The position numbers were made by a program, and so were the translations under genes. The notes beneath the pieces were generated by a model. It was not told where the DNA came from, ran no database searches, and saw nothing but the letters and a program-made list of their open reading frames with translations. A stretch of 64,000 nt of DNA from Phycobacter azelaicus (GTDB lineage: Bacteria > Pseudomonadota > Alphaproteobacteria > Rhodobacterales > Rhodobacteraceae), in NCBI RefSeq assembly GCF_014884385.1, contig NZ_WKFH01000003.1, positions 2,698,001-2,762,000 on the forward strand. Direction: 5' to 3'. Shown here one piece after another: positions 34,909-38,398 of the stretch. The stretch's first letter is position 1, and every line of letters begins with the position of its first letter.

Positions 34909-35469
34909 TCAGGTGCCGCGCAGCAGGGCGGCAACCCCGGTCCGTGCGATTTCGATCAGGCCAAGCGGGCGCATAAGGTCGGCAAAAGCGTCGATCTTGT
35001 CTGGCGCGCCAGTGATTTCGAAGATGAAGCTCTCGAGCGTGCTGTCCACCACGTTGGCGCGAAAGATATCGGCAAGGCGCAGGGCTTCGACACGCTTGTC
35101 GCCGTCACTGACCACCTTGAGGATTGCCAGTTCCCGCTCGACCGAGGCTCCTTCGACGGTCAGGTCATGCACTTCATGAACGGGCACGATACGGCCAAGC
35201 TGCGCCTTGATCTGCTCGATCACCTGCGGTGTGCCGGTGGTGACAACGGTGATGCGGCTAAGGTGGCCGGTGTGATCCACCTCGGCCACGGTCAAGCTTT
35301 CGATGTTATAGCCGCGGCCCGAGAACAGGCCGATGACACGGGCCAGAACGCCCGGTTCGTTTTCGACCAGAAGGGCGAGCGTGTGCCTTTCCTGAACGTC
35401 GGAGAACGTGGGACGTAGGTTATAGGCCGAATGTTTGGTGGCGCCTTTTTTGATGTGTAGGGCAGACAT
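34909..35469 (-). CDS. ilvH: Acetolactate synthase small (regulatory) subunit
   Basis: A 186-residue regulatory subunit of acetohydroxyacid synthase. The N-terminal ACT domain (HTLALLVENEPGVLARVIGL, then GYNIESLTV) binds valine for feedback control, followed by a C-terminal ALS_ss-type domain. It partners the large subunit encoded just upstream; 75 bp separate them. Length is that of the IlvH class rather than the short IlvN. The ATG at 35469 has AAAGGA upstream at a good distance. It controls the first shared step of valine, leucine and isoleucine synthesis. Confidence 0.95.
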   Translation of the reverse strand: MSALHIKKGATKHSAYNLRPTFSDVQERHTLALLVENEPGVLARVIGLFSGRGYNIESLTVAEVDHTGHLSRITVVTTGTPQVIEQIKAQLGRIVPVHEVHDLTVEGASVERELAILKVVSDGDKRVEALRLADIFRANVVDSTLESFIFEITGAPDKIDAFADLMRPLGLIEIARTGVAALLRGT

Positions 35470-35544
35470 GGTGTTGTCCTTTTTCCTATTGGTCCTCAGT
35501 CGTTTGGTCGGACCAGTCAATTTCGTGAAGAGGAGCGAACCGGA

Positions 35545-37296
<1,752 letters not shown>

Positions 37297-37335
37297 CTGC
37301 TTTTGCTCCAGTTGGCGGCAACGTCCATTCCGCAT

Positions 37336-37366
37336 AAAAAAAGCCCCCGATTTTCTGGTCGGAGGC
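37336..37366 (-). terminator. Attenuator terminator of the ilv operon
   Basis: On the minus strand an 8-bp stem (GCCTCCGA with TCGGGGGC, one G-U pair) is followed by seven T residues, 40 nt before the ilvI start. Its 5' arm overlaps by two bases the 3' arm (37365-37373) of a competing 9-bp hairpin, GCGCATGGG/CCCATGCGC, whose other arm (37399-37407) lies inside the leader peptide. Confidence 0.8.
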
Positions 37367-37391
37367 GCATGGGTCAGATTATGGTCTACCG

Positions 37392-37439
37392 TTACCGGCC
37401 CATGCGCTTGGTTCCTACAATGACGACTAGGGAAGTCAT
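37392..37439 (-). CDS. ilv leader peptide (attenuation)
   Basis: A 16-codon frame encoding MTSLVVIVGTKRMGR, then a stop. Five consecutive codons specify Leu-Val-Val-Ile-Val, the three end products of the pathway. It precedes a hairpin pair and a U-tailed terminator before ilvI. Stalling at these codons would leave the GCGCATGGG arm free to form the alternative hairpin, while reading to the stop would cover it and allow the terminator. GAGGAG lies 11 nt upstream of the ATG. Attenuation of ilv operons is known in proteobacteria; this instance is read from the sequence. Confidence 0.75.
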   Translation of the reverse strand: MTSLVVIVGTKRMGR

Positions 37440-37678
37440 TTGCCGTGAGGCTCCTCTTTTGCGTTGCAGCGCAGACTAGGACTGGCGGACAGGGGCGTCA
37501 ACCGGCAAACCTGTGGAAAATGCCCTTCTGGAGACATTTTCTTGCGCTGGCCGGGGTTGGTTGCGACATTTCCGCAAAACAAATGCGCGCCTACCATGTA
37601 GCCCCTGCCGTGAGGCCTGCGCGGTCCGCTGCACCGCGACATGACAACTTTGGGGCTGAGCGGGGCAGTGTCTTGGGC

Positions 37679-38398
37679 CTAAAGGCCGACACCTGTGCCC
37701 TGCAGCACCCCGTGCTCCAACGCATAGCGCGTCAGACCGGCCGTGCTGGAGATGCCAAGCTTGCGCTTGATGTTCTTGCGGTGGGTCTCCACCGTGCGCA
37801 CCGAGATGTCGAGCGTCAGAGCCACTTCCTTGTTGGACTTACCCTGCGCAAGTTCCAGCAGGATGGTCTGTTCCCGGCCCGTCAGGGCTTCGCGGGCAGC
37901 GCTGTCCTTTGGTTTGAGCGAGCCTTCGGCGCCAGTGCAGAGGTATTGCTCGCCGCGCATGACGGCATCTATGGCGTCCTTGATGGCCTGGGTCGGGACG
38001 TCCTTCAGAACATAACCCATCGCGCCATGGCTGAGCGCAGTAGAGATGTATTCTGGGCTGTCATGCATTGACAGGATGAGAATGCGGGTCTTGGGGCAAC
38101 GTTCCAGGATGATCTCTGTGGCACTGAGCCCCCCAAGACGCGGCATGTTGAGGTCCATCAGAATGACATCGGGCGTCAGTTCGCCCGCCAGTGCGACAGC
38201 TTCCTCCCCGTCTGTCAAAGACCCGACCACCTCGATGTCGTCATAGCTTTCCAGGATCGACTGGATGCCTTCGGCCACCATCGGGTGATCGTCAACGATC
38301 AGGACCTTCACGGGTGAGTTTTGAGTGTCTTGCAACAGAACGCCATCCCCAACAGTCTGTTTGTCACCAAACGCAGCCCCGCTTGACTGCCTCCTCAC
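37679..38398 (-). CDS. NarL/LuxR-type response regulator
   Basis: A 239-residue two-component regulator. The receiver domain (~30-150) has VLIVDDHP and the phospho-acceptor Asp82 in ILMDLNMP. The C-terminal LuxR-type helix-turn-helix (~170-230) shows ALTGREQTILLELAQGKSNK and SVRTVETHRKNIKRKLG. The GTG start overlaps the stop of the histidine kinase gene (GTGA), so the two are translationally coupled. A CTACGCAGTAG inverted repeat in the nearby dctP promoter region is a candidate target. It most likely controls the TRAP genes (inference). Confidence 0.93.
   Translation of the reverse strand: MRRQSSGAAFGDKQTVGDGVLLQDTQNSPVKVLIVDDHPMVAEGIQSILESYDDIEVVGSLTDGEEAVALAGELTPDVILMDLNMPRLGGLSATEIILERCPKTRILILSMHDSPEYISTALSHGAMGYVLKDVPTQAIKDAIDAVMRGEQYLCTGAEGSLKPKDSAAREALTGREQTILLELAQGKSNKEVALTLDISVRTVETHRKNIKRKLGISSTAGLTRYALEHGVLQGTGVGL

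Follow-up and report, generated by a model that had tools for sequence, protein, structure and literature searches.

The leader that precedes ilvIH in the marine bacterium Phycobacter azelaicus can be assigned with considerable confidence as a ribosome-mediated transcription attenuator, through which, to judge from its sequence, an ample supply of leucine, valine and isoleucine very probably turns the operon off. It lies on the minus strand of the window, a stretch of 64,000 nt (NZ_WKFH01000003.1, 2,698,001–2,762,000). An attenuator had been proposed here by an earlier sequence-only reading, and the proposal is supported by the anatomy of the leader, its conservation and the covariation of its two antiterminator arms (A and B), to which the position before ilvI and a bias in the control codons can be added. 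Comparison with a second order yields a natural series for a mechanical question, namely how little two hairpins must share for one to disable the other. As one order has two or three common bases and the next has none, strand competition and proximity become directly testable.

All parts of the leader are on the minus strand and are given in the order of transcription. A −35 element (TTGACG, 37496–37501) is followed after 17 nt by a −10 element (TAGTCT, 37473–37478), both assigned from sequence and from conservation of the promoter pattern; a sigma-70 scan of the leader region did not report this promoter. By position, transcription would start near 37466. A Shine–Dalgarno-like GAGGAG (37451–37456) stands 11 nt 5′ of the ATG of a 15-codon leader peptide ORF, MTSLVVIVGTKRMGR, which ends in TAA (37392–37439) and whose frame is kept in relatives. 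The ORF contains the control codons CTA GTC GTC ATT GTA (Leu-Val-Val-Ile-Val, 37416–37430), recognized by sequence and codon bias, and, within its K-R-M-G codons, arm A of the antiterminator (GCGCATGGG, 37399–37407). The 3′ arm of the antiterminator, arm B (CCCATGCGC, 37365–37373), forms nine perfect pairs with A, and covariation supports both arms. Between them, a mini-hairpin that is conserved in Rhodobacterales, CCG-GUAA-CGG (37389–37398), has the stop codon in its GNRA loop. The intrinsic terminator, GCCTCCGA-ccagaaaa-TCGGGGGC (37343–37366), was found by a terminator scan and is kept in relatives; its stem has eight pairs, six of them G-C and one G-U, and runs into a T7 tract (37336–37342). 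Sequence and the terminator scan place two bases, GC (37365–37366), in both antiterminator and terminator. The element thus spans 37439–37336, its first base being the A of the leader's start codon and its last the final T. The sequence-only reading had described three of these parts: the 15-residue leader is present exactly as claimed (37439–37392), the perfect 9-bp hairpin whose first arm lies in the last codons of the leader is correct to the base, and the terminator with seven T residues does have two bases (37366–37365) in common with that hairpin. Its remark that all three branched-chain amino acids occur in the control run is true in the window, and 54 of 63 Rhodobacterales leaders contain all three.

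The ilvI gene, encoding the large subunit of acetolactate synthase 3 (35545–37296, minus strand; NF006581, 1134.7 bits against a cut-off of 974), starts 40 nt past the last T of the T7 tract and is followed by ilvH, encoding the small subunit (34909–35469, minus strand; NF008864, 222.4 bits against a cut-off of 119). The starts chosen are the ATG at 37296, which follows GGAG, and the ATG at 35469; the ORF lister had placed them at 37335 and at a TTG at 35520, respectively. The gene upstream of ilvI (37679–38398, minus strand) encodes a NarL/UvrY-type response regulator that scores 277.2 bits against the MctR model, close to but under the cut-off of 300.

The ordered combination of leader, stem and terminator is not a product of chance. 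Defined as a terminator before a tract of at least six T, a short ORF with at least four Leu, Ile or Val in five residues, and a perfect stem of 8 bp or more, it is present once in the window, at the ilvI leader, and in none of 60 first-order Markov copies of the window searched on both strands; these copies contained seven terminators, one with a leader and none with leader and stem. The single measures are weaker. The terminator scan found one terminator against a mean of 0.6 in shuffles of the 431-nt region, which is weak alone, and the free folding energy of the leader is only modestly under that of shuffles (z −1.71, matched by 7 of 200 shuffles). The evidence therefore consists of the ordered combination and its conservation rather than of energy.

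Conservation was assessed with the best 80 of 592 named ilvI loci, of which 73 were aligned with the window. Among the 72 loci of the Rhodobacterales set (the window, L031–L100 and L103), drawn from these best 80 of 592, an automatic detector found leader, stem and terminator upstream of ilvI in 64. The sequence-only reading had staked itself on conservation in close relatives, and the leader frame, the Leu/Val/Ile run, both stems and an overlap of two or three bases are indeed kept across the Rhodobacterales. Arm A begins 13–14 nt 5′ of the stop codon in 56 of the 64 leaders. Eight loci went undetected. One (L043) is cut off by a contig end, and three (L076, L081 and L100) have an element that is visible by eye with few control codons; in these three the stems are intact and the control run is degenerate (VDDV in L076, for example), and the amino acids sensed may have changed or control may have been lost. 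By eye, no such element was seen in L088, L092 and L096 (Paracoccus) or in L103, a MAG. The three Paracoccus loci still have a TTGACC promoter-like site near ilvI, and with no leader seen there the attenuator has apparently been lost in them. The near-identical L031 was omitted from counts of pairing, codons, shared letters and mini-hairpins. A stop codon in a GNRA tetraloop (GUAA or GUGA) with three closing pairs was observed in 53 of 63 Rhodobacterales leaders and in 1 of 75 leaders of the Rhizobiales set described below; the closing pairs occur as CCG/CGG, CGG/CCG, UCG/CGG and UCG/CGA, with pair changes on both sides in four, and the mini-hairpin perhaps serves as a nucleus for folding of A:B.

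The Rhizobiales set comprises 99 loci: 90 ilvI upstream regions, taken from 116 listed places, together with nine named loci (L101, L102 and L104–L110). The order of the 90 regions was taken as Rhizobiales because their ilvI genes reach 92% identity with the one in Mesorhizobium L104; three of the named loci do not have a Rhizobiales label (L101, Neomegalonema; L106, a ‘Rhodobacteraceae’ MAG; L109, an ‘Alphaproteobacteria’ MAG). The attenuator was detected in 75 of the 99 loci, 67 of them among the 90 regions, and one of the 24 undetected loci (L304) has the element by eye. The 69 leaders compared for their arms contain 60 distinct arm pairs, a diversity that makes covariation testable in this set. 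A stricter Leu/Ile/Val filter was applied to a further 98 ilvI loci, nearly all of them belonging to other alphaproteobacterial families, and called the element in four. Two of these calls (L252 and L275) are not convincing as the ilvIH device, and L240 belongs to the Rhizobiales-like order; the filter missed L161 and L168, both visible by eye, and L284 provides only 130 bases. L252 (G375), from another alphaproteobacterial family, has a different Val-rich ORF (…NILINSLVNVVVVLLVEVRRA) and a terminator before ilvI, possibly an independent attenuator.

Promoter and control codons are conserved together with the stems. In the 120 nt that precede the leader start, the pattern TTGAC-N17–19-TA is present for 63 of 64 leaders from the Rhodobacterales, compared to 20 of 1280 mononucleotide shuffles, and for 71 of 75 from the Rhizobiales set, compared to 11 of 1500. 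Codon choice in the leaders departs from that in the ilvI genes: CTA makes up 36% of Leu codons in leaders and 1.3% in ilvI, GTA 46% and 4.2% of Val codons, and ATT 56% and 14.5% of Ile codons. The codon bias of attenuation leaders is treated in PMC1183508, according to which rarity alone is no full explanation.

Compensatory change, the other check suggested by the sequence-only reading, is observed in the A:B stem and is strongest in the Rhizobiales set. Windows anchored solely at the stop codon and the T tract were used to compare the pairing of each leader's own arms with that of re-paired partners in 2000 permutations. Own pairing was superior in the Rhodobacterales (z 5.4, 63 leaders) and in the Rhizobiales set (z 19.4, 75 leaders), with none of 2000 permutations as good in either; in control windows, own pairing did not exceed re-pairings. 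The first Rhodobacterales test had been non-significant (z 1.4, 169 of 2000 permutations as good) because its B window omitted part of B, and the value of 5.4 was obtained with a window widened after that result. In alignment A1, six of the nine A:B pairs are changed on both sides (14 cells versus 2.4 in shuffles), and the A:B score was reached by none of 500 shuffles and is above all six slid versions. Covariation of the terminator is weaker (three of eight pairs with two-sided changes, a level reached by 12 of 500 shuffles) and mixed, a slide of −1 scoring equally on several measures.

Other partners were sought for both arms. Arm A pairs with the upstream 60 nt no better than in permuted leaders (1320 of 2000 permutations as good), and pairing of the Rhizobiales terminator arm with the 25 nt before A, with the A–B loop or with the whole leader never exceeded permuted pairing. 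In fixed windows, too, no covarying partner that could act as another antiterminator was found for the Rhizobiales terminator arm. The alternative-partner test kept 60 and 67 leaders (stem of at least 7) and omitted helix calls outside −6 to +9 nt; as arms chosen by complementarity bias its A:B and terminator rows, these are replaced by the fixed-window and alignment tests.

The two orders differ in how the stems are placed. In the Rhodobacterales, 56 of 64 leaders have two or three bases common to antiterminator and terminator, and another three leaders have four or five; among 63 leaders the overlapping letters are GC in 32 and GCC in 23 (55 together), and longer in 3. In the Rhizobiales set, no base is common to both stems in 74 of 75 leaders. 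The gap there measures 0–9 nt in 68 of the 75 and 2–7 nt in 64, with a mode of 4 nt, the value also found in L101 and L106, two of the loci without a Rhizobiales label; in six leaders (L110, L306, L313, L329, L335 and L371) the helix was called 18–20 nt upstream. This contrast of gap and overlap between orders, and the apparent absence of any other covarying partner for the terminator arm, are new from the present sequence comparison.

A known RNA family can be connected to these leaders. RF02502 (Atu_C8, ‘Rhizobiales sRNA’) matches the window leader over its full length at 23.3 bits, under the gathering cut-off of 50 bits. Of 14 ilvI loci from the Rhizobiales set, seven (L104, L105, L294, L295, L296, L298 and L302) give a score above cut-off, each time directly upstream of ilvI; of five Rhodobacterales loci, none does. 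Atu_C8 and the window leader have the same GCGCATGGGC…ACCCATGCGC stem, although the two stems of Atu_C8 are separated by a gap and those of the window leader overlap. At least in those seven loci, Atu_C8 is the terminated ilvIH leader, suggesting that the ‘sRNA’ of Rfam had this origin. A strictly filtered search of relatives with RF02502 at E values up to 10 returned mostly sub-threshold matches, with matches in 6 of 14 control genomes, and was not used as evidence. A literature search for Atu_C8 found a single paper, on an unrelated topic. In all five genomes searched of one genus (L169:1501–1620 and L384–L387, in G254 and G447–G450), a leader was observed away from ilvI, at 70.7–98.8 bits for RF02502 and directly before a gene for a Bcr/CflA-like MFS transporter; the transporter family model was checked at L169 only, and no ilvI place was found for G450. 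These leaders encode Val-rich peptides such as MRMMQVSVVVGRRMGKAA and look like relocated attenuators, which hints that the transporter handles branched-chain amino acids.

We infer that the leader is translated, that ribosomes stall on it in response to amino acid supply, and that A:B stops termination as follows. The sigma-70-type promoter would give a transcript whose first ORF is the 15-residue Leu-Val-Val-Ile-Val peptide. With ample branched-chain aminoacyl-tRNA, the ribosome would reach the stop codon and mask arm A, B would remain single-stranded, and the terminator would form with its full eight pairs adjoining the T tract, so that transcription would stop before ilvI. When Leu, Val or Ile is scarce, the ribosome would stall at the control codons and leave arm A free. 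As B is transcribed earlier than the 3′ arm of the terminator, A:B would form first and capture the boundary GC at the terminator foot; the terminator would then either be without its last pairs by the T tract or be obstructed by the adjoining helix, and read-through by RNA polymerase would follow. From its position, and with an assumed footprint, arm A would lie under a ribosome that has reached the stop codon and be exposed during a stall. For Val8 in the A site, an assumed ribosome lead of 10 nt would already cover the foot of A, which counts against this scheme.

Predicted folding places limits on how the switch could operate. The folding set excluded the near-identical L031 and leaders with helix calls outside −6 to +9 nt, keeping 61 Rhodobacterales and 69 Rhizobiales-set leaders. 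In the window, the two conformers are only 1.3 kcal/mol apart (−23.5 for the fold that keeps A:B whole, −24.8 for the one that keeps the terminator whole), and with the ribosome at Leu4 to Ile7 and A free, the two lowest terminator pairs still have equilibrium probabilities of 0.83–0.90. Equilibrium folding is predicted to let A:B and the terminator coexist. With a stalled ribosome, the predicted probability of the terminator is 0.85 in the Rhodobacterales, compared to 0.97 with the ribosome at the stop codon; for the Rhizobiales set, the values are 0.97 and 0.96. The terminator is thus favored at equilibrium even with A free, and the switch would have to be kinetic, steric or both. Until the 3′ arm is made, essentially no pairing is predicted for the 5′ arm of the terminator: more than half of its unshared bases are paired in none of the 61 Rhodobacterales leaders and in one of the 69 of the Rhizobiales set.

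These data also bear on whether base sharing matters at all. A helix of A and B that abuts the terminator foot could block the terminator by itself, in the exit channel or by stacking, in which case sharing would be irrelevant and the two- to three-base overlap of the Rhodobacterales incidental. The Rhizobiales-set stems share nothing yet stay close, their terminator 5′ arm has no covarying alternative partner, and their predicted terminator probability is the same whether the ribosome is stalled or at the stop codon; competition for a shared base therefore cannot switch them, and the guess of the sequence-only reading that the antiterminator may work by stacking or steric blocking gains weight. 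The argument is nevertheless one from absence, and with a terminator arm rich in G and C, generic GG:CC pairing would be invisible to covariation. The overlap moreover persists in Rhodobacterales where the arms themselves change (L044, L048 and L074), suggesting that it matters. We regard blocking by proximity as a serious minority explanation for the window leader. Somewhat more speculative is an extension in which the leaders of both orders form one homologous family, the helix near the foot disables the terminator by proximity and not by base-pair competition, the overlap is one end of a range of about −3 to +7 nt, and one genus has moved the device before its Bcr/CflA-type transporter.

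Two further roles for the RNA can be weighed against antitermination by A:B. In trp-type leaders, the hairpin before the terminator serves as a pause or coupling hairpin, and A:B might likewise synchronize ribosome and RNA polymerase; the predicted coexistence of A:B and terminator would permit this. A:B ends at the terminator, however, where a pause would presumably come too late for coupling, no other antiterminator emerged from covariation, and arm A is so placed that a ribosome would mask it on reaching the stop codon and leave it free on stalling, all of which makes a pause hairpin improbable. Slightly less probable again is that the terminated leader acts mainly as a free small RNA of the Atu_C8 type, with a secondary effect on ilvIH, comparable to rnTrpL of Sinorhizobium, which acts in trans according to PMC7143759. 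The classification of RF02502 as an sRNA, its identity with the ilvIH leader in half of the 14 Rhizobiales-set loci, and the genus with the leader away from ilvI would fit such a role, but the leaders retain their control codons and their place before ilvI, and the relocated copies also directly precede a gene and retain a Val-rich leader. We know of no target of the ilvIH leader as a free sRNA, and a role in trans would in any case be compatible with attenuation in cis.

Attenuation of ilvIH by the Rhodobacterales leader is ordinary in kind. Vitreschak et al. (2004) reportedly predicted alphaproteobacterial ilvIH/ilvB attenuators. Attenuation of ilvIH by ilvL is stated for Caulobacter (PMC4117421), and both an alphaproteobacterial ‘ilvB leader peptide’ (PMC1273637) and a Sinorhizobium ‘ilvIH cis regulatory’ element (PMC2573895) are credited to that study. 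As far as these sources describe them, such attenuators match the window leader in operon, leader peptide, attenuation and bacterial class; the comparison covers these features, and the Rhodobacterales geometry and the covariation across orders were worked out here. Among the matches listed by a literature search, with most subscription journals outside its scope, neither the Rhodobacterales leader nor the Rhizobiales gap was described.

In models of E. coli ilvBN, ilvGMEDA and leu, the antiterminator and terminator have a long segment in common. These operons, listed as attenuated in PMC1183508 with leu as the rare-codon example, resemble the present leader in stalling at control codons and in biased codon choice. 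The small overlap had been called unusual by the sequence-only reading; it has a precedent in the ‘fast attenuator’ of Corynebacterium glutamicum ilvBNC. There, the feet of the hairpins compete for a boundary GCC at which switching takes place, and mutations in the boundary region raise expression seven- to eight-fold (PMC11857589). The two systems are alike in acetolactate synthase operon, adjacent feet, boundary GCC and low-energy switch; C. glutamicum, from a different phylum, has a leaderless mRNA and an antiantiterminator hairpin, whereas the window leader has a predicted 5′ UTR with a Shine–Dalgarno-like site and no covarying partner of A upstream. The letters shared by the Rhodobacterales stems are mostly the GC or GCC of an ilvBNC-type boundary, for which the two hairpins may compete in the same way.
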